From NCBI RefSeq assembly GCF_000949255.1, contig NZ_JXUW01000030.1, forward strand, positions 1-33,176: 33,176 nt of DNA. Reading direction: 5' to 3'. The notes beneath the pieces were generated by a model, which was not told the DNA's origin, did no database searches, and saw nothing but the letters and a program-made list of their open reading frames with translations. Position numbers and translations under genes: made by a program. The stretch comes from Ferrimicrobium acidiphilum DSM 19497. GTDB taxonomy: Bacteria; Actinomycetota; Acidimicrobiia; Acidimicrobiales; Acidimicrobiaceae. Positions 19,257-31,651 of this stretch are shown piece after piece; the stretch's first letter is position 1; every line of letters starts with the position of its first letter.

Positions 19257-20234
19257 CTAGATGCGCTCGTGGGTGTGCTCATCGATCCGTCGTCGAAGCA
19301 CAAGCAAAGTATCCCCAGCCTCGATAGTCGGATCTGCGGAGACCCCCATATGTATTTGTCCTTGCTTCACAACGCCTAGTAACAGCCCGTGCTCAAGCGA
19401 CCGAGCTTGGCTCAGAGTTCGCCCAATCAACTCTGGCGAGGCGCCAAACTCACGAAACACCATCTCTGGAGAACGAACCATCTCCAGTAAAAGATCTCCA
19501 GCATGGGGAGTCTCAATACTCTTGGCAAGAGTATGCCCCAAAAGATCCTCGACTGACACCGTAGTCTCAACTCCCAGATCAGTCAGCGCAGTCGCGATCC
19601 GTGACGAGTTCGCCACCGCAATCAGAGGAACCAACGGAGCGAGGTGACGGAGCATTACCGCAATGAGGAGGGCGTCCTTCTCATCCTCGACTGCGATCAG
19701 AAGGCGGGTGGCTCGCTCCGGTTCCGAGCGACGGAGCACGACTTCGAGAGTGGGATCTCCCTTGATAGTCTCTACAGTTGCAGGCAGACTCTCTAGGTTG
19801 CTCTCGGCGATAACCACTACTCGCTCCCCAGTAGCAGCCACCTCAGCCGCTATTTTGCGAACTGCGTCGTGCATACCGTAGATGGCGATAAAACTTCCCT
19901 TGGGCGGCCCTTCTCGCATGTGCAAGAGCTTAGCGAGTCGAGTAGCCGTCAACGATGCTGCCAGAAAGGCAAAGGCGGCGCCGAAGAGCGGGATTGTGGT
20001 TACCATCACAAGTATGGCTATCACACGACCGACCGTATTGTGCGGAGTGACATCCCCATAACCAACAGTGGTAGCGGTGGTGATAGCCCAATACAGCCCT
20101 ATACCAATGCTGACATGTTGGGTGACGGCAAAGGCAAGTGCACCGATCACTAAACAGACTAATGATGCGACCAGCAACGTGATGATCTGGCTTCGTTTTA
20201 CCTTGGTTAGCAGTATGGCAAACAGCGACGGCAT
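19257..20234 (-). CDS. Two-TM K+ channel with RCK (TrkA-N/TrkA-C) domains
   Basis: A 325-aa protein. TM1 is at about 17-38 and the pore helix and selectivity filter TVGYGD at 56-61. TM2 is at about 68-95, followed by a cytosolic RCK module: N-lobe about 113-235 and TrkA-C-like C-lobe about 240-322 (GASPELIGRTLSQARSLEHGLLLGVVKQG). The filter is canonical, so K+ conduction is expected, probably gated by ligand binding to RCK. The nucleotide loop reads IYGMHDA in place of GxGxxG, so NAD-type binding may be lost. The start is ATG 20234 with a weak Shine-Dalgarno sequence. A four-copy 28-bp repeat fills the region immediately upstream. Confidence 0.88.
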   Translation of the reverse strand: MPSLFAILLTKVKRSQIITLLVASLVCLVIGALAFAVTQHVSIGIGLYWAITTATTVGYGDVTPHNTVGRVIAILVMVTTIPLFGAAFAFLAASLTATRLAKLLHMREGPPKGSFIAIYGMHDAVRKIAAEVAATGERVVVIAESNLESLPATVETIKGDPTLEVVLRRSEPERATRLLIAVEDEKDALLIAVMLRHLAPLVPLIAVANSSRIATALTDLGVETTVSVEDLLGHTLAKSIETPHAGDLLLEMVRSPEMVFREFGASPELIGRTLSQARSLEHGLLLGVVKQGQIHMGVSADPTIEAGDTLLVLRRRIDEHTHERI

Positions 20235-20377: not shown

Positions 20378-21592
20378 CTATGCGAGAAAATCAGGTGTGA
20401 GTCGCACCTTCCCCGATCCGCCTCGTAGATCTAGTACCGCCGCTTCAAACGGACCGAGCTCACGCAGTTCACCCCGACTAAACAATGGTCTCTCAACCTT
20501 GTGAGTGCTTGTGGTGAGACGTAGGAACCCACCTCGTTGCCATCCAACCTCAGCATGATCTATGGTTCCAAAAAGCTCCTCCAGCATCCGCAGTGTCTCG
20601 ATATCTCCGATACCACCAAGTACTACGGTAGTGCCAAATAGGGTGAGTAAACCTCGCATCAACGCCGGCCAGCGCTCTCGTGCCTGGGAGAGATCTTGGA
20701 GGGCCCCAAGCAAATAAACTCCTTGGCTGACTCCCTCCGACAACAACGAACCGAGTGAGGGCAGTGGGGCTATATTAGCCATCTCGTCGAGTAGTAACGC
20801 GACTTTTGGCTCTGCGCCAATAGCCGTCGAACGATAGGCTGCTCGTCGGATCTCGTCTAAAAGCGCCACTACGACCGGAGCCACCACCGTCTGCACCAAC
20901 GACGGTGATACCACCAGAAGGAGATCTTGACTCACGACGAAGTTGGAGGGCACGAACTCCTCTCCATCTTGTTGATCCCGAAAGCGGTAGGCGGCCAAGG
21001 CTGCTGAGGTCGACGAGATGATCGCAGATCGCTCCCTCGCCTCGGTTCCCAATATCCCTTGAAGCACCTCTACGGCACGTTCCTCGCCCGAGAACTGCAG
21101 GGAATCGAGGGCCTCAGCAAAATCGCGTCGATCGATCCAGCTAGCAACGACGCTGGCCGATACCCCTGACAGTTGCGCCGCCAGCAAAAGCGGCGCTAGG
21201 AGTGCCTTAGCGCGGTCGATCCAGTGACGATCAGCCGATGATCCAGTACCTAATGCTACGGCGACGAAACCCTCTGCCACCAGTACCGCCTCTTCAAGAT
21301 TGACCGATGCCGCCACTGGTGACCAGCTCGCTCGGCACACACCATCGGGCAACGGGAACTCCCCACTCGGATCGAAAACCCAGACGGTACCAACTTCTCG
21401 ACGTCGAACCAAGATGGCGTCTAGGATGTCGTTCTTGGTGGAGGTGACGACGACAGCTCCTGGGAAAAGACGAGCGTTGGGGATCACCAACGACGACGTC
21501 TTACCCGACCTCGGGGGTCCAAGCACGAGTAGGTGCGATCTATCAGAGGTAAAGAACGGGGCACCACCCGCCTGTCGCCCCAGGTAGAACAT
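20378..21592 (-). CDS. VirD4/TraG-like ATPase, orphan and lacking TM helices
   Basis: A 404-aa P-loop ATPase of the type IV coupling-protein family. Walker A is GPPRSGKTSS (25-34) and Walker B VALLLDEMANIAP (264-276). A VVVTSTKNDI block and WVFDPSGEF stand where TraG has a TDPKGE element. GALQDLSQARERWP lies at about 296-309. T4CPs pump DNA substrates through conjugation systems. This copy is short, lacks the N-terminal membrane helices, and has no relaxase, VirB or integrase gene nearby. ATG 21592 lies 5 bp after the CoA-transferase stop; a longer start at 21625 would overlap it. It ends the tight train starting at ddl. It could be a remnant of an ICE or a repurposed ATPase. Confidence 0.75.
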   Translation of the reverse strand: MFYLGRQAGGAPFFTSDRSHLLVLGPPRSGKTSSLVIPNARLFPGAVVVTSTKNDILDAILVRRREVGTVWVFDPSGEFPLPDGVCRASWSPVAASVNLEEAVLVAEGFVAVALGTGSSADRHWIDRAKALLAPLLLAAQLSGVSASVVASWIDRRDFAEALDSLQFSGEERAVEVLQGILGTEARERSAIISSTSAALAAYRFRDQQDGEEFVPSNFVVSQDLLLVVSPSLVQTVVAPVVVALLDEIRRAAYRSTAIGAEPKVALLLDEMANIAPLPSLGSLLSEGVSQGVYLLGALQDLSQARERWPALMRGLLTLFGTTVVLGGIGDIETLRMLEELFGTIDHAEVGWQRGGFLRLTTSTHKVERPLFSRGELRELGPFEAAVLDLRGGSGKVRLTPDFLA

Positions 21593-21597
21593 GAGCC

Positions 21598-22728
21598 CTA
21601 CTCGATGACCAACCCTTGCGCGCACAGCGCATCGGCCTCATCTCGATCGACTCCTATCTCCTCTAGAATACCCCTCGAATCGTAGCTGAGCTCTGGTCGT
21701 GATCGTCGATCTTCGTCGGTTTGATGGCTGAATCTGGGAGCAGGAGCGGGCTGGGTAAAGCCACCTACCTTAACAAAACTTCCACGCTCCTGGTGAAAAG
21801 GGTGCTCAAGCGACTCGCCCATAGTTAAGACTGGAGTAACGCAGGCATCCGAGAACGCAAAGACCTCTTCCCAGTCTGAACGAGAACGACCAGCAAACTC
21901 CTTCTCGAAAGCAGCCTCCATCTCCGGCCACAGCTGATGATCGTACTGATTCTTGACGTTGAATCTATCACCCACACCTAACGTGGTGACGAGCTCGTTA
22001 AAGAACTGAGGCTCTAGCGCACCTACGGCCAACCAGCGATCATCCTTGGTGCGATAATTTCTATAGAATGGGGCACCGCCGTCGAGCAAGTTGCCTCCAG
22101 GAGCAGCCGACCACCCTCCATCTTGAAACATCGAGTAGATCATGGTCATCAACAACAAGGAACCATCGACCATAGCAGCATCAACCACCTGACCACGTCC
22201 GGTCCTATGAGATTCAATCAACGCGGCTAGCACACCAGCGACGAGTAGCATTCCTCCACCACCAAAGTCTCCAACTAGGTTGAGTGGAATGGTCGGGCCA
22301 TGCTCCGATCCGGCAATCGAGCCCAACACACCCGAGAGCGAGATGTAGTTGATATCGTGCCCAGAACGTGTGGCCTTCGACCCCTCTTGGCCCCAGCCAG
22401 TCATCCTTCCATAGATAAGTCGTGGATTCACCGCCATCAACTGCTCTGGTCCGAGGCCCAGGCGCTCCATAACACCTGGTCGGAAGCCTTCAATGAGAAT
22501 AGAGGAGCGGTCCACAATCCTCAAAATTAGCTCGGAAGCACCTGGTTTCTTCGCATCGATTGCGATGGCACGCTTACCTCTGCCCATCAGATCTGCGCCG
22601 ATTCCTGGACGCTTCGGCGGATCTATCCTGATCACGGTCGCCCCAAGATCAGCCAACATCATGCCCGCAAACGGTGCCGGTCCAATCCCCGCCATCTCAA
22701 CGACTCGAATCCCTTGCAGCGGTCCCAC
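21598..22728 (-). CDS. CaiB/BaiF CoA-transferase, alpha-methylacyl-CoA racemase-like
   Basis: A 376-aa member of the class III CoA-transferase family closest to AMACR: MAGIGPAPFAGMMLADLGA near the N-terminus. H124 and D125 lie in SGHDINYI, and D154 in NLVGDFGGGG. Their spacing matches the His/Asp catalytic pair of the mycobacterial racemase. It would be expected to epimerise 2-methylacyl-CoA esters, a step in branched-chain or sterol side-chain breakdown. GTG 22728 has a GGGGGAG Shine-Dalgarno sequence that overlaps the end of the upstream hydrolase gene, so translation is coupled. It is unusual that the next gene is VirD4-like. Confidence 0.88.
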   Translation of the reverse strand: MGPLQGIRVVEMAGIGPAPFAGMMLADLGATVIRIDPPKRPGIGADLMGRGKRAIAIDAKKPGASELILRIVDRSSILIEGFRPGVMERLGLGPEQLMAVNPRLIYGRMTGWGQEGSKATRSGHDINYISLSGVLGSIAGSEHGPTIPLNLVGDFGGGGMLLVAGVLAALIESHRTGRGQVVDAAMVDGSLLLMTMIYSMFQDGGWSAAPGGNLLDGGAPFYRNYRTKDDRWLAVGALEPQFFNELVTTLGVGDRFNVKNQYDHQLWPEMEAAFEKEFAGRSRSDWEEVFAFSDACVTPVLTMGESLEHPFHQERGSFVKVGGFTQPAPAPRFSHQTDEDRRSRPELSYDSRGILEEIGVDRDEADALCAQGLVIE

Positions 22729-22731
22729 AAT

Positions 22732-23592
22732 CTACTCCCCCGCCTCGCCAACCGTAGCTAGCATCTCTTTCGCCAGCCTATTCCAACACCAAGGCGGCAG
22801 GTCGTGGCCGAGCCCGGCAAAGATGAGCAGCCGCGACGACCTGAGTACCCGAAAGGTATCAACACCACCCGAGACGTTCACCAGTGGGTCGATCGCTCCA
22901 TGAACAACCAGCGACGGGAGCCCCTCTAAGGTCGACAGCGCCACCGAACGATCTGGAGAGGCCAGAATGGCGGCTAGCTGGCGAGCGCTCGAAAATGGAT
23001 CTTCAACTCCAGCCGATCTCAATCTAGCTCTACTCCTTGCGATCCGATCGACGATAGCCTGCCGCTCTAGATGTGAGCGTGGTTGGGCCACTACGATCTC
23101 CAACGGCTCCTCTGGATCTGGATTCAGCAGTGCCGCCAGCGCCAGCTCGCTCGGCTGCCCCACCCCTGCTCGTCCTGTAGATCCGAGCATACTGACGATC
23201 GAGAGGACACGTTCTGGCTCCTCGATCAGAAACTGCTGGGCGACCATCGCTCCCATCGAAACTCCGACTAGATGGACCCTGTCAATCTCAAGACGATCAA
23301 GAAGTTCCAGCAGATCATCAGCCATGTCGGCAAGGGTGTACGGTGCGAACTCACGACGCCCTAGGTAGATCGAGAGGAGATCCGGAACGCCGTCGCTCTC
23401 CATCCGAGTCGAGAGACCACTATCACGCTGATCGTAGGTCAGCACCCGATAGCCAGCCCCAAGAAAGAGTTCGATAGCCCACGTAGGCCAATCGGTCATC
23501 TGCCCGCCTAGGCCATGGACAAAGACCACGACCGGACGATCCGGAGGACCGATCAGTTCATACTCCAACCGCACCCGCGTGGGGTTAGCCAT
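22732..23592 (-). CDS. Alpha/beta hydrolase
   Basis: A 286-aa hydrolase. The oxyanion region is FVHGLGGQMTDW, the nucleophile elbow is GVSMGAM (Ser112), the acid is probably Asp in VHGAIDPLV and the His is in GLGHDLPP. The TYDQRDSGLST motif is typical of the family that includes haloperoxidase- and lipase-like esterases. A cap region lies between about 150 and 210. The substrate is unknown; an ester or thioester linked to the adjacent CoA-transferase is possible. ATG 23592 overlaps the methyltransferase stop in the sequence ATGGCTAA, giving an 8-nt overlap. It lies 3 bp upstream of the CoA-transferase start. Confidence 0.82.
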   Translation of the reverse strand: MANPTRVRLEYELIGPPDRPVVVFVHGLGGQMTDWPTWAIELFLGAGYRVLTYDQRDSGLSTRMESDGVPDLLSIYLGRREFAPYTLADMADDLLELLDRLEIDRVHLVGVSMGAMVAQQFLIEEPERVLSIVSMLGSTGRAGVGQPSELALAALLNPDPEEPLEIVVAQPRSHLERQAIVDRIARSRARLRSAGVEDPFSSARQLAAILASPDRSVALSTLEGLPSLVVHGAIDPLVNVSGGVDTFRVLRSSRLLIFAGLGHDLPPWCWNRLAKEMLATVGEAGE

Positions 23593-24391
23593 CAGCGAAC
23601 TCACAGACAAGAGTTACCGTTGGGTTCGGCAGCACGAGGCCCTGCTCAAGTGCAGACTGGATTGCAACGTCCTCACGCGGAGTTAGACAGAGACGTCTTC
23701 GAGTCGAGATCACCTGAGTTGCCGGGTCTGAGGCTCGACGCACTCCAGCACCAAGAGCCACCTTCGGGGTCATCCCCATCATGACAAGCGCCCCTATAAC
23801 CTCGACCGCGCTTGGGGCCGTGGGTCGCTCGAGTTGATGAAACTGCCTCCAAAGAAGATTGAGTCCATAATGGGGATGGTAGAGGGTCATCTCTAGGACC
23901 ACGCCCACCTTGGCATGGGCAATCAACCCGCCTAGAAATCCAAAAAGATCATCAACGTTATAGACGACGTTCTGGGAGGTCACCACGTCATAGAGCTCTA
24001 AGTCGGGCTCGAGCGCAAAAAAATCCCCCACTCTCGTCTCGACAAGCAGCTGAGGAATTGACTCGCTCTCAAGCGCAAGCATCTCTAGCATCGCCGCATC
24101 GCGGTCGACTGCGAGTAGAGACTGGATGAAAGAGCCGATTGGGAGTACGCAGGCTCCTGCACCTGCACCCACATCGAGAACACTCCGGGAGGGCGAACGA
24201 TCTAGCAAGTCAACGATCGCCTCCTGCGTGCGATTCAAGGGTCCATCGTAGAAAGGGCTGAACGCTCTCGGATCGAATGACCACGGAGAGTCCGGTGCCA
24301 CAGCGAGGAGATCATCGGGTATCGCCCACTCACGCAACTCTCTTGACCAACGACTGCCGAGCTCATCCCTGACCGCTTGATCTGCGTTCAT
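23585..24391 (-). CDS. Class I SAM-dependent methyltransferase
   Basis: A 268-aa protein with motif I VLDVGAGAGACVL (71-83), motif II LLAVDRDAAML, an acidic motif III block ETRVGDFFALE and motif IV YDVVTSQNVVYNV. An N-terminal extension of about 55 residues precedes the Rossmann core. The C-terminal part, from about 190, carries GALVMMGMTPKVALG and probably shapes the substrate site. No subfamily can be named. The ATGA at 24391-24388 is shared with the stop of the PH-domain gene, and the 3' end overlaps the hydrolase start. Confidence 0.75.
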   Translation of the reverse strand: MNADQAVRDELGSRWSRELREWAIPDDLLAVAPDSPWSFDPRAFSPFYDGPLNRTQEAIVDLLDRSPSRSVLDVGAGAGACVLPIGSFIQSLLAVDRDAAMLEMLALESESIPQLLVETRVGDFFALEPDLELYDVVTSQNVVYNVDDLFGFLGGLIAHAKVGVVLEMTLYHPHYGLNLLWRQFHQLERPTAPSAVEVIGALVMMGMTPKVALGAGVRRASDPATQVISTRRRLCLTPREDVAIQSALEQGLVLPNPTVTLVCEFADG

Positions 24392-25080
24392 TTACTCCCT
24401 CGCTGTTCACCATCGAGATCGCGCAGTAGTGACGCTTTGGCCTGTTCGAACTCTAAGTCGCTCAAGAAGCCACCTGCGCGTAAAATCGAGAGTCGCTCAA
24501 GTCGACTCAGCGAATCTGCGCCGGTATTGTTAGCGTCGGAGGTGGGCAGCTCCGGGTGATCTGCGTCGCCAAGGCTTGCGAGCAGCTGCCGGAGGCGTAC
24601 CGGGTTCGGCACGAACGTGACGAGTTCGTCGCCAAGCGCATTTCCAGAGTCGATATGAAGGCGACCAAAATGGAGGATCCTGCCGATGATTCCCTGCTCG
24701 GTGGTGATGTCATTGACGTGGCGCAATGGGATCTCACTCGTCCGACGCAGTAGCACACCTCGCGAAAACCGGACCCTTCGGTCGGTAACCACCAACATCT
24801 CGAAATACCACTGCAACCCCCTGAATATCAGGTTGATCGCCGCCAGTGCCAAGATTACAAGCCCAGCGAGACTCAACAAGGCGAGATTGAAGGTTGTCAA
24901 TACAATAGCGATGATGCATGCTGCCGCAAAGGTAGATACAGGTCCGAGCACCAGCCACCAATGCGGATGGATAACCGCTACCACCCTCTCACCTGGGTCA
25001 ACCATGGCGCCCACCATACGTTGCGTGCGCAAAGAGAGTTGACCTAGGCCTGATGTGATCGGCGGCTCGTGCTGGGTCAT
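24388..25080 (-). CDS. Bacterial PH-domain (bPH2/DUF304) membrane protein with SHOCT-like tail
   Basis: A 230-aa protein. Two adjacent hydrophobic helices lie at about 45-86. Then comes a bPH2/YdbS-like domain: WYFEMLVVTDRRVRFSRGVLLRRTSEIPLRHVNDITTEQG is the family signature, here in overlapping form. The C-terminus (LERLSILRAGGFLSDLEFEQAKASLL) is a SHOCT-like short helical motif. Such proteins sit in the inner leaflet; function is mostly unknown. ATG 25080 was chosen because the longer frame to 25188 overlaps the end of ddl and has an Arg-rich non-conserved start. The gap to ddl is 10 bp. Confidence 0.8.
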   Translation of the reverse strand: MTQHEPPITSGLGQLSLRTQRMVGAMVDPGERVVAVIHPHWWLVLGPVSTFAAACIIAIVLTTFNLALLSLAGLVILALAAINLIFRGLQWYFEMLVVTDRRVRFSRGVLLRRTSEIPLRHVNDITTEQGIIGRILHFGRLHIDSGNALGDELVTFVPNPVRLRQLLASLGDADHPELPTSDANNTGADSLSRLERLSILRAGGFLSDLEFEQAKASLLRDLDGEQRGSK

Positions 25081-25090
25081 GGACCGCAAC

Positions 25091-26200
25091 CTACGCGAGC
25101 TTCTGAGCGATCGTCGCAGCCGACTGCAGCACGCTTCCATCAGCGCCTTGGGTGACGGGAGCGTACGTTGGTCGCTCCATCGCCTCACGAATATCGCTAG
25201 CCAGCTGCTCGGCTAAAGTCTGCTTAGGTTCAAGGAAGAGGTAATGCGAGAGCGAACCAGGAATGGTATTTGCCTCATTCAGAAACAGTTCGCCGGCATC
25301 ATTGGCGAGGAAATCGATTCTCGTCACGCCGCGAGCCTGAATTAGAGTGGCCGTTCTCTCCGCGATCTGGCGAAGCTGCTCCTCCGTCTCCGGTTTCAGC
25401 AGAGCAGGTAGTTCGCGTGGCGCCGAGGCCATCCCGGTGCCTGGTTGATACTTGTCTGAGTAGGTCAAGATAGCCGCTGCCCCCGCTGTACGGGTTGGTC
25501 GTTCGATCGCGGAGAGTGTGAGCTCCGGATAGCTCCGGATAGCAATCTGAAGATCATAGAGATCGTCACGAAACGGTTCCACTACTGCGCCTGAGCGAAG
25601 ATGGACACTGCTACGGATTCGATCCCGAAGCGTAGCCTGATCGCGCACCACCTCAATACCAATCGACGAGCCACCAAAGCGCGGCTTCACGATATAGGGA
25701 CCCTCAAAGGGGATCGCGCCGTCGCCAGCCACCCGAGGAAGAACGGGCACTCCCGCAGCCGCCGCGAGCGCCGCAAAGCTAAGCTTATCCATGCCAATCG
25801 CAGCCGTCGCAGCGGATGGGCCAGTGTAACGCAGTCCGGCGAGGTCCATCGTGGCCTGTATGGATCCATCTTCGCCGGGGCCACCATGACAACAGTTGAC
25901 GACTACAGAGATAGCCAACATCTCCAACTTTGGCCGAAGACCCGAAGATAGGCTCCCAAATCCTGACCGACCTCCCACGATCAACATAAGCGGTTCAGCC
26001 TCGGCAGGGACTCCATGTGCAAATGCCGGAGCCTCCAGGGTCGGGGGCACGCGATAGAACTCACCAGTCTTAGACCAGTAAATTCCAACGACTGACCTCT
26101 CGGTGCGCAAGAGCGCATGCGCCGCCTGCAGCCCAGTCAGGATCGAGATATCGTGCTCCGGCGAGGGGCCCCCAAAGAGGACCGCAGTCATCATATCCAT
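25091..26200 (-). CDS. ddl: D-alanine--D-alanine ligase
   Basis: A 369-aa ATP-grasp enzyme making D-Ala-D-Ala for the peptidoglycan stem. It begins with the typical VLFGGPSPEHDISILTG. It has the NCCHGGPGEDGSIQ loop, the lysine loop in YIVKPRFGGSSIGIEVV, and TRIDFLAND..LFLNEANTIPG, where the Mg ligands Asp, Glu and Asn sit. All residues expected for catalysis are visible. Compared with Escherichia DdlB (about 306 aa) it is longer, with added residues in the central domain and a 40-residue C-terminal tail. ATG 26200 has GGTGGAG about 6 nt upstream; a TTG at 26218 is possible. The IS607 remnant lies directly upstream and a Mur ligase gene beyond that. Confidence 0.9.
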   Translation of the reverse strand: MDMMTAVLFGGPSPEHDISILTGLQAAHALLRTERSVVGIYWSKTGEFYRVPPTLEAPAFAHGVPAEAEPLMLIVGGRSGFGSLSSGLRPKLEMLAISVVVNCCHGGPGEDGSIQATMDLAGLRYTGPSAATAAIGMDKLSFAALAAAAGVPVLPRVAGDGAIPFEGPYIVKPRFGGSSIGIEVVRDQATLRDRIRSSVHLRSGAVVEPFRDDLYDLQIAIRSYPELTLSAIERPTRTAGAAAILTYSDKYQPGTGMASAPRELPALLKPETEEQLRQIAERTATLIQARGVTRIDFLANDAGELFLNEANTIPGSLSHYLFLEPKQTLAEQLASDIREAMERPTYAPVTQGADGSVLQSAATIAQKLA

Positions 26201-26291: not shown

Positions 26292-26320
26292 GAGCATAAT
26301 TGCTCAAAGCCGTTAGGCTT
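26292..26320 (-). ncRNA. Tandem hairpins at the 3' end of a TnpB remnant (possible omega-RNA end)
   Basis: On the minus strand AAGCC-TAAC-GGCTT (26320-26307) and GAGCA-ATTA-TGCTC (26305-26292) are consecutive perfect 5-bp hairpins, the first overlapping the remnant's TAA stop. TnpB omega-RNAs end in such structures at the element's right end. The element is otherwise defective, so this would be a relic. Expression is untested. Confidence 0.4.
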
Positions 26321-26645
26321 ATCCGCACACGGTTGATAAGAGGTTTTGGTCTCTTGCAACTCGTGCCCCTTGACGCTCAGTTGCGCCGGATGAACGCGCT
26401 AGCAAGACACGCCGAACTTCCTTGTGAGGGGTATAGAGAGTAATCTCTTGGTCGGAGTATCTATGTAGCAGGTTCAAAGCAGCGTTGAAGTCAGCCTGGA
26501 GAACATCCCCGTTTGCACAGTAAAACTTATCCGCCTCACGCTTACCTTCCAGTAAATGTGTGTTGGAGTCCATCTGCGATGTATAGGCCGCATTCACGAG
26601 TACATGCCTCGCTTTACGCTGTTGCGTTATAGATTCTAGGGCATC
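26319..26645 (-). pseudogene. TnpB (IS607-type) C-terminal remnant
   Basis: From about 26645 to TAA 26321-26319 the frame encodes the last ~105 residues of a TnpB: ALESITQQRKARHVLVNAAYTSQMDSNT, then CANGDVLQADFNAALNLL. The final catalytic Asp of the RuvC domain (ADFNAA) is retained. This is the TnpB group in which the usual zinc-ribbon cysteines are replaced, MDSNT...FYCANG in place of CSxCG...CxxCG. Everything before this point is missing and the upstream neighbour sequence is TnpA, so a deletion has fused the two genes. No full enzyme can be made. Confidence 0.8.
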
Positions 26646-27102
26646 CGCCCTCTTCGGCAATGTGGGAGATGAGATCGAGTCCGAACCTAGCGAGCCTATC
26701 TTTGTGAGCAATTATTAGGCGTTCAACCTCTCCGTGTTGTATGCGATCTATAAGCGCCAGGAACTTCTTGCGTTCGAAGTTCATGCCTCCACCGATCTCT
26801 TCAATTCACTCGTCTACTGCTACACCAGCGTTTAGGCAGTAGGTCTCCATCGCCTTGACCTGTGATGCTAGGTCGTCTTTTTGACCAGCACCACTCACTC
26901 TGCAATAGACGACAGCGACTCGGCTAACTGGGGCACCTCCCAGCATGGATCGCAGATCAGACTCATCGAAGTAACGATGCCCGCTCGGAAGCCTTTTAGG
27001 TGTGATTTTGCCTTCTTGTTCCCAGCGCCGTACCGTACTCGGGCTACGCCCAATCCGTTTTGCGAACTCGCCAATGCCGTAGGTGTCAGCCATTGCAGTC
27101 AT
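26640..27102 (-). pseudogene. IS607-type TnpA with nonsense codon, truncated
   Basis: The first 98 codons are intact: a MerR-like helix-turn-helix (GEFAKRIGRSPSTVRRWEQEGKI), then the start of the serine recombinase domain with AVVYCRVSGAGQKDDLASQ, where the Ser is the expected nucleophile. TGA follows at 26808-26806 where related proteins have Trp. Beyond it the frame stays homologous (EEIGGGMNFERKKFLALIDR, then AHKDRLARFG) for about 55 codons until it meets TnpB sequence near 26640. A TGG to TGA change plus a deletion explain the present state. Non-functional. Confidence 0.85.
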
Positions 27103-27168
27103 TTAAAGCACAGGTTGGGTAGAAAAACATTATCTGTTGTTTGCTCCACCCAGACTAACTCAGGCCGT

Positions 27169-27209
27169 TGCATCTGAGTGATAAATGGTGAGTCACTCAC
27201 TTAGATGCA
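27169..27209 (-). ncRNA. Hairpin at the 3' end of the intact tnpB (omega-RNA candidate)
   Basis: TGCATCT (27209-27203) pairs perfectly with AGATGCA (27175-27169), and GAGTGA with TCACTC extends the stem inside; a nested GTGAG-TGA-CTCAC is an alternative. The stem straddles the tnpB stop codon. TnpB guide RNAs are transcribed from the 3' end of tnpB into the right end of the element, so this is the expected place for the scaffold's terminal hairpin. Boundaries of the RNA are not known. Confidence 0.5.
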
Positions 27210-28792
27210 CCTTTTACAAGGTTCTCGTCTCGGACTTCATGCTCACTCGTCCAAGAGTCGTTCTTGCCTCGCCAAGCACGGCCAGTATTGCTACCGGTCT
27301 TACATGCTCTCTCCAGGTGATGAGTCATCCCATCATCTGAACTGCCGCCTGTACCAAATGGCCTGGGAACGAACAGGGCGCTGGACTCAACTAGCCCACA
27401 ACTGATAACCGACCAGTCACGGATATTCAATGAAGCATTCTCATCGCGATCTACCTCAACGTGGCAGGTATCACAGGTCAGCCTTTTAGCGAGCTTTGCA
27501 CCCGTTAGTCTGCCTCCGCAGTTGTGGTGGATCTGTGATGACGGGAAGAAGCGATTTACAACGACTACCTTCACTCCCACACGTTCTGCCTTGTAGGTAA
27601 GCGTTGGTCGAAAGGCTCCGAGTCCGGCATCGGATACCGAACGGCGGAATGCCCGTCTTCCCATGCTCCGTTTCATGGCAGCGAGGTTAAGGTCTTCAAT
27701 CTTAACTTCGCTGTAGTTATCCACCAGATAACGAGTTAACTGGTGGATGCTTTCACGACGGATGTATACGGCTTTACGGTCTAACTTGACAAGCTTGGCT
27801 TTCGCTCGCCTGTGACCGTGTGATCCAGGTATCCGTCGTGAAAGAGTGCGCCCAACCCTGCGGCGCTCTGTGAGTGTAGCACGTAGTGGTGCTGGGTTGG
27901 GGAAAATTGTTATGCTGCCGTTACTGTCAGCCACGGTAGCTAGTGACCGTAGTCCTAGATCGACGCCAGCCTTGCCGGCTTTGGGTGACTGTCCCGATGG
28001 AGACACGATCTGTGTTCTTACGGCCATTTGGCAAGAGACGAACAACCTCCCCCATCTCTCCGATAAAGTGCAGTTGAGCAGTCGAGCGTTGTTCTTGGCT
28101 AAGTGACGCTGTATTCTGCGCGTGTTCTCTTTGGAGCGTAGAGCGCCTATGGTCGGCAACACGATTGTTCGATGATCATCTTCAAAGCGCATAGCGCCAG
28201 TTGTAAACCGTACTCTGTTCTGGTCTTTCCTCTTGGACTTGAACTTCGGGAACCCGACCTTCTTGCCCTTGCGACTTCCGTGTTTTGAGCTAGACCAGTT
28301 AGATAGCGCCTGCACTAAGTCGGCTATACCAGAGGCATACGCCTCTTTGGAGTTATCACCCCACCAGGGCGCGACCTCGTCCTTCTCTTGGTTCCACTGT
28401 TTACGAAGAGCCTCAAGAGTCCACGGCGTAGATGGGTAACTCGCGTCTCTCTTCTTAGCCTCCATGTCTGACTTTACTTTGGCTAGCGCCCAGTTGTAGG
28501 CGACTCTTCTAGCTCCGAAGTGAGATCGGATGAGAGAAGCCGACTTCGGATCTTTTGGCCACTCTAGCTCAAATGAAGCTCCTGTAACCGTCCATCCAGT
28601 CGGAGCCTTCTCTCCGGTATCGTCGCATAACCCGAAGAGTACACTGACCGACTCTAGAGCATCTCGATATTGCTCAAAATCTCCAGCTAGCGCGACTTTC
28701 CTGGTCGGTTTACCGTCATCGAGAAGAACTTTGCCTCCGGTGAGATCGGATACTTTCTGAGCCTGTACTTTTGTGCGCATCACTGCAATCAT
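27197..28792 (-). CDS. tnpB: TnpB, IS607-family RNA-guided nuclease
   Basis: A 531-aa OrfB/TnpB. RuvC Asp278 is in GVDLGL, Glu366 in VKIEDLNLAAM and the final Asp in VDRDENASLNI (448-450), so the catalytic triad looks complete. The zinc ribbon reads HHNCGG...TCDTC: the first Cys of the usual CxxC is His (422). The N-terminal part has the helix-rich WED/REC-like portion (FGARRVAYNWALAKVK). ATG 28792 overlaps the TnpA stop as ATGA; alternative starts lie a few codons either side. The C-terminal tail of about 65 residues after NIRDW is longer than usual and may double as guide-RNA sequence. Confidence 0.9.
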   Translation of the reverse strand: MIAVMRTKVQAQKVSDLTGGKVLLDDGKPTRKVALAGDFEQYRDALESVSVLFGLCDDTGEKAPTGWTVTGASFELEWPKDPKSASLIRSHFGARRVAYNWALAKVKSDMEAKKRDASYPSTPWTLEALRKQWNQEKDEVAPWWGDNSKEAYASGIADLVQALSNWSSSKHGSRKGKKVGFPKFKSKRKDQNRVRFTTGAMRFEDDHRTIVLPTIGALRSKENTRRIQRHLAKNNARLLNCTLSERWGRLFVSCQMAVRTQIVSPSGQSPKAGKAGVDLGLRSLATVADSNGSITIFPNPAPLRATLTERRRVGRTLSRRIPGSHGHRRAKAKLVKLDRKAVYIRRESIHQLTRYLVDNYSEVKIEDLNLAAMKRSMGRRAFRRSVSDAGLGAFRPTLTYKAERVGVKVVVVNRFFPSSQIHHNCGGRLTGAKLAKRLTCDTCHVEVDRDENASLNIRDWSVISCGLVESSALFVPRPFGTGGSSDDGMTHHLERACKTGSNTGRAWRGKNDSWTSEHEVRDENLVKGASK

Positions 28793-29355
28793 GAGCACAC
28801 CGCATCAATAGCACGCTGAGCTTTGTTAACAGCTAAACGACGACCATAGAGACGAGCGCATAGTGACGTGAGCAGTTCTGTGACATCTCGTACTAAGTCG
28901 TCATCTACCTCAGCAGGGTCTACAACGACGAGTTTCCTTGATTGAGCCTCAAGTGCGGCTTCTATGTATTCAACTCCAAACCGGCAGAAACGGTCTCGGT
29001 GCTCAACCAAAATTGTGCTTACTTTTGGATCTTTCAGTAGAGACAAGAACTTACGCCTATGCCCGCCAAAAGCTGAGCCGACTTCTGTTACCACACAGTC
29101 TATTGAGTATCCATGCTCTGTAGCCGAAGTAAGGACTCTGGCAACCTGGCGGTCTAGGTCTGGCTTTTGATCTGTAGAAGACACTCGCGCATATATCACG
29201 GCAGACTTAGGCACGGACAGCTGTGACTCTAAGTCTCGAACCAATATGAGTTGGCCAACTTTGCGGGCAGGTACAGGCAAAGTACCGGCACGATACCACC
29301 TATATGCCGTTTGGGGATGTATACCTTGGGAGAGTGCCCACTCACGCAGGTTCAT
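28789..29355 (-). CDS. tnpA: IS607-family serine transposase TnpA
   Basis: A 188-aa protein of full family length. An N-terminal MerR/Xis-like helix-turn-helix (LREWALSQGIHPQTAYRWYRAG, shown here in part) precedes the small serine-recombinase domain. The nucleophile is Ser59 in IYARVSS, followed by DQKPDLDRQ, EHRDRFCRFG and a C-terminal helix TELLTSLCARLYGRR. IS607 TnpA cuts and rejoins with a covalent Ser-DNA link at loose dinucleotide targets. ATG 29355 follows AGGATGTA. The 3' end overlaps tnpB by 4 nt, the standard IS607 layout. Confidence 0.92.
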   Translation of the reverse strand: MNLREWALSQGIHPQTAYRWYRAGTLPVPARKVGQLILVRDLESQLSVPKSAVIYARVSSTDQKPDLDRQVARVLTSATEHGYSIDCVVTEVGSAFGGHRRKFLSLLKDPKVSTILVEHRDRFCRFGVEYIEAALEAQSRKLVVVDPAEVDDDLVRDVTELLTSLCARLYGRRLAVNKAQRAIDAVCS

Positions 29356-29513: not shown

Positions 29514-31103
29514 CTACGGGTAATGGTCAGGGAGATCGTTCTCATAGAGTACGACATCGCCCGACTTGGCACTCCGTTTGATATAAGCAATTGCGCTGTC
29601 TCTGTCCTTCACGGATACCACAGCATCCAACCGGGTGCCCTCGGCTGTTGCCTGAGCTTCAGCAGCTCCCTCCATCAGCGCGATGCGGTTGGTCATACCG
29701 ACCACAACCAGTTGATTGGCGACCTGACCTACGGCCTTGCCTAGCGCGTAGTTCTCTGGATACTGACGTTTGCCAAGCTCTACCATCCCAGGCGTCACTA
29801 CGAACTTGGTGGCCGCCTCACCACCACGTCGTTGGAGTGCCGCCAACGCTCGCCTAGCTCCTGCGGGGTTAGAGTTGTAGGTATCATCGAGAACCTCAAC
29901 CCCGCTATCTGGCACCACTGCAGTCACTAGCCGATTGGCAGGAGACTTGACCAGCCCGAGACGGGACTGTAGTGCCTCAGGAGCTACACCGCACTCAAGA
30001 GCAGCCGCCACCGCGCAGGCGAGGTTTGTAGGAGCGATATCCCCGGCGTCGATCTTGGCTAGCTTTTGGCCATGTAGGTAGACGACAAGTTCGCCCTCCT
30101 CGTTCGGCTTAACGGTTACATCTGCATCGAGTTGGATCGCAGATACCTTCACAATTCGACGGTCGGTGGCGCTACCAGCAAGTGCCTTAGCCGCAAGCGC
30201 AAGCCGTGGATAGTCGATATTGATTATCACAACCGACGCCTGCTCTGTGATCTCCAGCTTCGCACGCAGAATCGACGCCTCTGAGCCAAAACGCTCGAGA
30301 TGAACCGGACCAAGCGCGGTCAACACCGCTATCTCGGGAGGGATCCATGAGCATAGCGCCGCAATCTCACCAGGGCCGAAGGTCCCCATCTCAGCTACGA
30401 AGACCTCGGTGCCAGGAACCAGCCGTTCATTGATCGATCGAGCTAGACCTCCTCGGTTGTTGAACGACGCCGGCGAGGCGATCGCTCGCACTGAACCTTC
30501 GAGCAGGGTCGCAAGGTAATTCTTCGTCGTCGTCTTTCCAAACGACCCGGTGATCCCAACCACTCGAGGGCGGACTCGCAATAATCGCTCGGTGGCATCA
30601 TCCACATAGCGTTGAAGGAGATGGTCCTCTAGCGGACGGGTCGCAATAAGCGCGAGTTCGACCACCGCGGGAGCAAAAAAACCGGCGAGAAGGGCAAAGG
30701 CGAGTGGCAGCCCTACCACCAGGCCTACAAGGGTGACGATAACGTCGATCAAACCAACTGCCACCAACAGCCGTCGCATCCTCGAGGTGAGAGCAAGCGG
30801 AGAAGTCCGCCCACGAAATCCCAGACCAAACGGAGTCAATAGCAGGCAGATGACCAGCAGGGCCGCAATAACGAGATGGACTTCGGTTCCAAAAGATTGG
30901 ACGAAACTTCCGACCAGGAGGACAAGACCGACAACAAGCAACGCCTGGTTCACGAACGAGGCCCGAAACCAAAGGGCAAAGAAAGGACCGATGCGACCAG
31001 GCAGGTAGTGCTCTCGTTGACCTACTCGAACCCACTTTAGTGCCGGGGTCTGAGCGACTATACCGATCAGAACGGCCACTACGACGGCAAGCTCATGCCC
31101 CAT
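29514..31103 (-). CDS. Membrane-embedded MurF-like Mur ligase
   Basis: A 529-aa protein. Four to five hydrophobic helices fill residues 5-155. A Mur ligase central domain follows: P-loop GITGSFGKTTTK (183-194), EMGTFGPGEIAAL, TALGPVHLERFGS and RAKLEI, which carries the lysine that is carbamylated in the family. The C-domain has DDTYNSNPAGA and PGMVELG. The central and C-domains are MurF-like, but the N-terminal UDP-MurNAc-peptide-binding domain is replaced by the membrane region. A lipid-linked or other membrane acceptor is therefore likely; D-Ala-D-Ala addition is suggested by the ddl gene downstream on the same strand. Start uncertain: ATG 31103, or TTG 31115 directly after GGGAGG. Confidence 0.78.
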   Translation of the reverse strand: MGHELAVVVAVLIGIVAQTPALKWVRVGQREHYLPGRIGPFFALWFRASFVNQALLVVGLVLLVGSFVQSFGTEVHLVIAALLVICLLLTPFGLGFRGRTSPLALTSRMRRLLVAVGLIDVIVTLVGLVVGLPLAFALLAGFFAPAVVELALIATRPLEDHLLQRYVDDATERLLRVRPRVVGITGSFGKTTTKNYLATLLEGSVRAIASPASFNNRGGLARSINERLVPGTEVFVAEMGTFGPGEIAALCSWIPPEIAVLTALGPVHLERFGSEASILRAKLEITEQASVVIINIDYPRLALAAKALAGSATDRRIVKVSAIQLDADVTVKPNEEGELVVYLHGQKLAKIDAGDIAPTNLACAVAAALECGVAPEALQSRLGLVKSPANRLVTAVVPDSGVEVLDDTYNSNPAGARRALAALQRRGGEAATKFVVTPGMVELGKRQYPENYALGKAVGQVANQLVVVGMTNRIALMEGAAEAQATAEGTRLDAVVSVKDRDSAIAYIKRSAKSGDVVLYENDLPDHYP

Positions 31104-31651
31104 TGCTTCGGCCAACCTCCCGGACTAGGACCCAACCACTATAGTAGCGGAGACCTCATCCCAGCGCCTACGCGACTAGCTTCTCGGAGCATTCGCCCGG
31201 CCCGGGCTGGTTGATGCTAGACCATGCAAGTTGACCTACGACACCTCCTCTGACTCTTTGGGGTGACGCAGTGTACGGTGGTGAATGATCTTCAGCTACG
31301 CACAAGCATGCGTCATTGGGGTCGGTCACTCGTGTGACCATTTGGCGACAGCAATCCAGTTTTGACTCACCACCACCGCTTGCGCAGGAGGCGAACCCGG
31401 TGCCGCCATCTTGGCGATACTCCTCTATTCGCGAGTGAAACGAATCCCTGCCCAACCTGACTGGGGCGGAGGCTGTCTCCACTTCGGGTTGAGTCGCCTT
31501 AAGTCTCCGACCGTCGGTTGGCGACCATACTAGATAGCTCGATTGCGAGTATGAGCAAACCGTCGGCGAGGATGTTGCCCTAGGTCTCAGTATCAGTGTG
31601 TGCGCGGATTGAAAAATAATTCAATGAGGGCGAGAAGGCAGAGATGTTGAG
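31104..31651. other. Gene-free stretch before the IS3-type element
   Basis: No gene is convincingly supported. A 104-codon open frame on the minus strand (31168-31482) is rich in Cys, Ser and Pro and resembles no protein I know. The left end of the IS3-type element should lie within the last ~100 bp, but I could not identify a terminal repeat. Confidence 0.4.

Follow-up and report, generated by a model that had tools for sequence, protein, structure and literature searches.

A soluble TrwB-like ATPase at the end of a conserved gene train, probable motor of a domesticated conjugation-like system in Acidimicrobiales

Why should an ATPase resembling a conjugative DNA pump stand last in a run of cell-wall, membrane and lipid genes? 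The question is raised by a 33,176-nt stretch of Ferrimicrobium acidiphilum DSM 19497 (contig NZ_JXUW01000030.1 of assembly GCF_000949255.1), which was analysed at its full length and is called the window here. Six of its genes form a train on the minus strand: ddl, a bacterial PH domain gene, and genes for a methyltransferase (MT), an alpha/beta hydrolase (ABH), a family III CoA-transferase (CoAT) and a VirD4-like ATPase, T4A. Conjugation machines are normally a property of plasmids or integrated elements, which move themselves. We consider it likely that T4A is instead the coupling ATPase of a resident, chromosomal, vertically inherited and domesticated conjugation-like system of Acidimicrobiales, other parts of which lie elsewhere on the chromosome, namely a relaxase of MOB_F type that lacks a helicase motor, and a monoderm-type type IV secretion system (T4SS) operon in which VirB4 is split in two. 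An odd-looking operon becomes, through its last gene, the entry point to what is probably a domesticated conjugation apparatus, one that occurs in many acid-loving actinobacteria.

As far as sequence and model indicate, T4A works like a type IV coupling protein in a soluble form, and a hexameric, DNA-dependent ATPase activity is predicted. It has a RecA-like ATPase fold with Walker A (GPPRSGKT) and Walker B (LLLDE) motifs, the ATP-binding residues of which are invariant in 41 of 41 aligned relatives. The five best fold matches of its AlphaFold2 model (pLDDT 94) are all TrwB-deltaN70 entries (Z 29.8-30.1, rmsd 3.0-3.1 over 355-365 residues, 18-19% identity), followed by Cag-beta (Z 26.3) and then by DndH, the Legionella coupling complex, VirB4 and HerA. 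In a profile search against PDB sequences TrwB likewise came first, and T4A aligns end to end with the TrwB cytosolic domain. The initial annotation, which had called it a DNA-pump-type ATPase, is supported in this respect, given the TrwB-like fold and the Pfam T4SS-DNA_transf match. The closest T4A (96%) belongs to a metagenome-assembled genome (MAG) of a Ferrimicrobium sp. In a T4A-like search of 296 genomes of the phylum, scores of at least 450 bits were reached in 7 genomes, all of the window's order, and the next relatives scored up to 361 bits.

The surroundings of T4A were scored in 121 loci, consisting of 41 loci and the best 80 of the 464 relatives confirmed among named contigs; they comprise 111 distinct T4A sequences, and some genomes contribute to both sets, as with L034 and L181. 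In 57 of these loci, the window not among them, T4A has a TrwC-type relaxase no more than 2 kb away, and train genes are present in 28, yet relaxase and train together in none; distant murF/ddl-like genes were seen within 9 kb in 6. The set of 80 gave 39 loci with the relaxase and 20 with train genes. In L060, L064, L068, L071 and L072, one further protein cluster occurs near T4A; its scanned member, that of L060, is an HU protein whose tail resembles histone H1.

Of 148 genomes of the order, 47 have T4A when the cut is set between E values of 1.9e-48 and 5.4e-39. VirB4 was found in 46 of these 47 genomes as opposed to 21 of the 101 others, and TrwC in 46 of 47 as opposed to 34 of 101, counting any TrwC match, resident or mobile. 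In the genomes of further train loci, relaxase and VirB4 matches were present in 8 of 8, the weakest relaxase match being a fragment (E 7.5e-7). It is these partners that T4A goes with, so the suggestion in the initial annotation of an envelope lipid or peptide modification coupled to transport finds no support.

The train does recur, and this part of the earlier interpretation holds. The initial annotation had named conservation of the order in relatives as the test of a joint function, and the full order murF-ddl-PH-MT-ABH-CoAT-T4A was found in 9 loci (the window, L035, L046, L179, L183, L184, L186, L187 and L208) and part of it in 19 more. A first neighbourhood comparison, made by tblastn of the window's proteins against 40 loci surrounding T4A in further genomes of the order (the later set came from a profile search), had found it complete, with protein identities of 31-62%, in G032, of the same family and another genus, and in G049, of another family; MT was absent from it in G082, and it was partial in G117, G050, G092 and G125. 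Such a recurrence of the complete order in another genus and another family indicates that the train is more than chance. A single unit, in which a transporter ATPase is coupled to the making of cell-wall precursors and to the modification of lipids or peptides, would account for this order and for the short gaps, which suggest one transcript. We nevertheless find it very improbable. MT is missing from the train of L034 (and L181), L182 and L211, MT and ABH from that of L185 and L190, and ABH and CoAT from that of L052; the ATPase folds like the DNA pump TrwB; and the 57 T4A loci beside a relaxase have no train gene nearby. A joint envelope and transport function was set aside because the neighbours of T4A vary while TrwC and VirB4 remain in the genome. 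To judge from gene order, the conserved train would mark an old chromosomal location of T4A and not one pathway.

Among the 57 relaxases adjoining T4A, 54 carry an HxHxH signature and no Walker A, 42 are at most 500 aa long, and 2 are cut at locus ends. In 60 aligned resident relaxases, which were picked by the HxHxH motif, the N-terminal Tyr is present in 59 and the His cluster with the Pro-His-x-His-x-His columns in all 60, and a Pfam TrwC match was obtained for those of G000 and G032. In the window's family, as well as in G049 and G050, the relaxase is located elsewhere, between genes that are partly common to these genomes and include BipA-, LPG-synthase-, carboxyltransferase- and aminotransferase-like genes. 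In L053, L195 and L230, T4A comes straight after an ordinary TrwC with Walker A in the same orientation, which may reflect capture by, or exchange with, mobile elements. T4A and the resident relaxases are comparable to TrwB and TrwC of plasmid R388, in that T4A matches the TrwB cytosolic fold with a Z of about 30 and is partnered with a TrwC relaxase domain bearing the Tyr and the HUH centre. Unlike the R388 pair, the Acidimicrobiales system is chromosomal and vertical, its T4A has no membrane domain and only about 18% identity to TrwB, and its relaxases have no Walker A.

The channel would be provided by a separate operon encoding a pilin, a VirB6-like protein, the N-terminal half of VirB4, the VirB4 ATPase and a second VirD4-like protein, T4B. 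The operon thus holds the VirB4 ATPase, VirB6-like channel and VirB2-like pilin of a monoderm conjugative T4SS. Family support comes from AAA_10/TraG P-loop matches (VirB4) and from DUF6112 above its cut-off, with TrbC and TrbL_4 below theirs. The N-terminal half of VirB4 (c6) gave a low-confidence model (pLDDT 53), the first 14 fold matches of which are all R388 TrwK/VirB4 structures, which we take as a hint only. The ATP-binding motifs of VirB4 are intact in 10 of 10 proteins checked. A histidine kinase gene is divergent from the operon. In four genomes of the window's family the operon adjoins one common gene set, called flagellar/chemotaxis by eye from the L081 sequences; the recurrent neighbours in L081, L082, L079, L075 and L329 are flagellar (FlgK/FlgL/FliW/CsrA-like) and chemotaxis-type genes, likewise named by eye. 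In one family (f16; G015, G105 and G069), a resident-type relaxase stands divergently beside pilin-VirB6-VirB4N-VirB4, 59-122 nt from the pilin frame. PHLHTH is present and Walker A absent in all three of these relaxases, of which that of G105 is truncated at the end of its contig, and a T4B match beside VirB4 is seen in G069 only. Given the linkage of relaxase to T4A in many genomes and of relaxase to T4SS in this family, the modules are tied together. F. acidiphilum itself has T4A, a resident relaxase on contig C1 and T4SS genes on C34 and C9; ordinary Walker A relaxases are found on C10 and C44, and contig C31 (L074) carries a second VirB4/VirD4 set that is unlike the resident one.

Such a system would have to be chromosomal and inherited with its host. 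On the single contig of G032 (2,158,157 bases), T4A lies at 610 kb, the relaxase at 581 kb and VirB4 at 209 kb. Mantel correlations with rpoB distances were 0.73 for T4A, 0.87 for VirB4 and 0.70 for TrwC (28, 19 and 17 genomes, respectively, shared with rpoB fragments; for VirB4 and TrwC the available rows were used, with one ordinary relaxase, that of G124 at L053, among the TrwC rows). Without the window's family the values were 0.71, 0.76 and 0.71. As a control, mobile TrwC gave 0.41 versus 0.87 for T4A in the same 8 genomes, one of which (G109) has a T4A copy near its relaxase. Selection is purifying: between the window's genome and that of its nearest relative, L177, dN/dS was 0.057 for T4A, 0.11 for VirB4 and 0.26 for the relaxase (583 codons), with all five genes compared below 0.3, and against the genome of L178 it was 0.057 for ddl (94 codons) and 0.093 for VirB4. 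The idea that T4A is a plasmid or phage gene was rejected, since the best match in the plasmid collection has 33.5% identity (all 247 records are below 60%) and no T4A relative was found among viral contigs. Taken from the sequences, T4A appears chromosomal and vertically inherited, as expected of a domesticated DNA-transfer system, and a few second copies may be mobile.

How might these parts work together? The relaxase would nick the cell's own DNA and remain bound to the strand. T4A, probably as a hexamer without membrane anchor, would engage relaxase and DNA in the cytosol and drive them towards a membrane-anchored T4B/VirB4 channel, which would then export single-stranded DNA or nucleoprotein. 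It is tentatively possible that relaxase, T4SS and two coupling ATPases together constitute a vertically inherited, host-owned native mating machine nicking and donating the cell's own chromosome, in which every cell is an Hfr-like donor, a bacterial counterpart of Ced with a relaxase added. If true, such a host-owned system with its relaxase retained would allow a direct test of whether programmed chromosome donation has evolved in bacteria.

Judged from excerpts of the respective publications, several known systems share some of these traits, those of Ced/Ted and of Patescibacteria most closely. The archaeal Ced/Ted systems (PMC9905601) are also chromosomal, host-owned T4SSs with VirB4-, VirB6- and VirB2-like parts; in contrast, a relaxase and two VirD4-like ATPases co-occur in Acidimicrobiales, and the authors of the archaeal work, in the text excerpted, know of no archaeal relaxase homologue. 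In the same excerpts (2023), a conjugative apparatus domesticated for DNA transfer is, to those authors' knowledge, unreported outside the archaeal systems described there. The chromosomal, monoderm-type T4SS of Patescibacteria (PMC12102498) has VirB4, VirB6 and a pilin, with VirD4-like genes often distant from virB4, but most of these bacteria have no relaxase, unlike the 46 of 47 T4A genomes with TrwC. The gonococcal genetic island combines a T4SS with a relaxase and secretes single-stranded DNA; it is an island of a sub-population, in contrast to a system scattered across an order. Actinobacterial T4SS-type integrative and conjugative elements (PMC3218068) have the same trio of VirD4, VirB4 and TrwC (MOB_F), yet they are mobile, whereas the Acidimicrobiales modules occupy separate, recurrent chromosomal sites. 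Excerpts of the open-access literature contained no report of this system in Acidimicrobiales. These comparisons also bear on an alternative, that the system is domesticated but handles another cargo, be it protein effectors, DNA uptake or release to the surroundings, or defence, along the lines of Patescibacteria, Ced or MADS. Patescibacterial T4SSs mostly do without a relaxase and Ced imports DNA, as the excerpts have it, and PADLOC gave weak matches of T4A to mad8 (32 bits) and of MT to mad2 (37 bits). We think another cargo unlikely, as the kept HUH relaxase argues for a DNA substrate. A MADS-like defence in particular has only these weak matches to offer; they are partial, VirB4 matches mad8 better (60 bits), which suggests that a shared ATPase fold is being detected, and no further model of the mad1-mad8 set matched among the 8 proteins scanned.

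Several observations weigh against T4A serving a resident conjugation-like system. A hydropathy scan of 41 loci upstream of the conserved start revealed no N-terminal membrane domain, the sole exception being L073, whose raw frame has hydrophobic stretches before that start, and for this reason we hold back from placing T4A in the coupling-protein family. Since relatives outside the order do have transmembrane segments (two at the N-terminus in each of the 4 of 13 loci that gave a readable frame, and one in a Kineococcus relative, L254), the loss looks derived. Walker A is absent from all 60 resident relaxase open reading frames (ORFs), as compared with 28 of 37 other TrwC rows that have it (L112 among the latter itself adjoins T4A, and many are cut at locus ends), so that a host helicase would be needed; as to a separate helicase gene, 2 of 57 loci have a Walker A ORF no more than 3 kb from the relaxase, and in one of these (L195) it is the relaxase itself. 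No oriT is known, and no systematic search for one was run. In 30 of the 121 T4A loci (5 of these near contig ends) neither relaxase nor train is nearby, and 3 of the 57 T4A-adjacent relaxases are the ordinary TrwC proteins of L053, L195 and L230. Of the T4A genomes, G137 has no VirB4 match, its T4B being at a contig end, and G065 no TrwC match. A second T4A-like copy exists in G021, G109 and G124; that of G109 has an ordinary TrwC with Walker A some 2.3 kb away, hence some T4A copies may be mobile. Mobile TrwC still tracks rpoB weakly (r 0.41, p 0.012), so the Mantel test separates resident from mobile by degree only, and most of the genomes are draft MAGs.

T4B adds to these doubts. The second glycine of its Walker A is replaced in 6 of 14 aligned proteins (L082, L084, L085, L176, L333 and L334), and in F. 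acidiphilum an ISL3-like insertion appears to have disrupted T4B at the ends of contigs C34 (L173) and C9 (L075), each of which starts with a transposase fragment (ISL3-like by eye) beside a piece of T4B; in the relatives L316-L318, T4B is in one frame. Altered T4B motifs next to an invariant T4A Walker A may fit T4A as the working motor or may alternatively reflect decay of T4B, and they make a functional resident system slightly less likely and decay more so. An ancient integrated conjugative element, now scattered, decaying and of little function, would explain this state of T4B, the relaxases without helicase Walker A, the lost membrane domain and a relaxase that evolves fastest of the five genes compared. 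Even so, decay strikes us as quite unlikely: T4A is kept in 47 of 148 genomes, the ATP-binding motifs of T4A and VirB4 are intact, the nicking centre of the relaxase is kept, and dN/dS is 0.06-0.11 for T4A and VirB4.

With T4A assigned to a resident conjugation-like system, what are the other genes of the train? Their labels in the initial annotation all agree with the Pfam matches (Table 1), the starts and stops of all six check out, and they are as closely packed as had been described, with distances of 10, -4 (ATGA), -8 (ATGGCTAA), 3 and 5 nt from ddl to T4A. Co-transcription is suggested by these short gaps; promoter and terminator scans were near shuffled background (8 versus 6.3 and 12 versus 9.2 expected, respectively). 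At 85.8 bits, ddl far outscores the three other Dala_Dala_lig_C matches of the genome (28.6 at most), and is therefore taken as the housekeeping enzyme. The CoA-transferase reached no NCBIfam cut-off. Viewed at the level of gene order, the train is a real, old and conserved operon-like cluster of otherwise ordinary genes: murF, ddl and the PH, MT, hydrolase and CoA-transferase genes probably share a transcript and have housekeeping or lipid functions, T4A having kept its place beside them in Acidimicrobiaceae and some related groups. In a quick T4A tree (LG+G4, 109 rows and 4 outgroups), 20 of 24 train rows fall in one clade (L046, L052, L056 and L058 lie elsewhere) and the relaxase and train contexts require 3 changes; as the deep forks are weak, the tree does not decide which context is ancestral. 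One locus with T4A and relaxase, L251, is on a contig titled Candidatus Saccharibacteria, and since its T4A falls among the Acidimicrobiales rows, the contig is probably mislabelled or mis-binned.

Table 1. Genes and other features of the window in and around the train
Feature	Position	Strand	Evidence
Gene next downstream of T4A, a potassium channel with TrkA domain	19257..20234	-	Pfam
Four 28-bp tandem repeats shortly past the T4A stop codon	20249..20360	-	repeat scan
T4A, soluble TrwB/VirD4-like coupling ATPase, 404 aa	20378..21592	-	Pfam T4SS-DNA_transf 1.1e-15, TraG-D_C; AlphaFold2 model; fold match
Family III CoA-transferase (CaiB/AMACR-like), GTG start, 376 aa	21598..22728	-	Pfam CoA_transf_3 6.9e-78
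Alpha/beta hydrolase, 286 aa	22732..23592	-	Pfam Abhydrolase_1 5.2e-24
Class I SAM methyltransferase, 268 aa	23585..24391	-	Pfam Methyltransf_11 3.7e-6, Methyltransf_25
Bacterial PH domain protein, 230 aa	24388..25080	-	Pfam bPH_2 9e-14; by eye, hydrophobic N-terminal part and SHOCT-like tail
ddl, D-alanine--D-alanine ligase, 369 aa	25091..26200	-	Pfam Dala_Dala_lig N/C
Resolvase and TnpB fragments, apparently a second element of like kind	26319..27102	-	short ORFs 26319-26711 and 26806-27102, by eye
TnpB-like ORF, 533 aa, same element as the resolvase below	27197..28798	-	ORF; name by eye
Serine resolvase of the element parting murF from ddl	28789..29355	-	Pfam Resolvase 2.5e-14
murF-like Mur ligase, probable ancestral first train gene	29514..31115	-	Pfam Mur_ligase_M/C

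Downstream of the train, the potassium channel gene adjoins T4A in L035, L177 and L178 only. The core of the 28-bp repeats has no further copy in its own genome at up to 2 mismatches, and two copies are found in the nearest relative, L177. The repeats were set aside as an oriT because, among the loci scanned, they are present only in the window and L177. Upstream, murF is now about 3.3 kb from ddl, whereas in L034, L035, L046 and L052 it is directly upstream; in L035 the ddl match begins 64 nt past the murF match. It seems from this arrangement that the train began with murF, which has since been cut off by insertion of an IS607-type sequence. The intact resolvase is presumably an IS607 TnpA-like protein, and the 533-aa ORF is what we take to be TnpB. 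The interval between murF and ddl (26319-29355) holds one whole-looking resolvase/TnpB pair and a decayed second copy, which together split the ancestral cell-wall operon.

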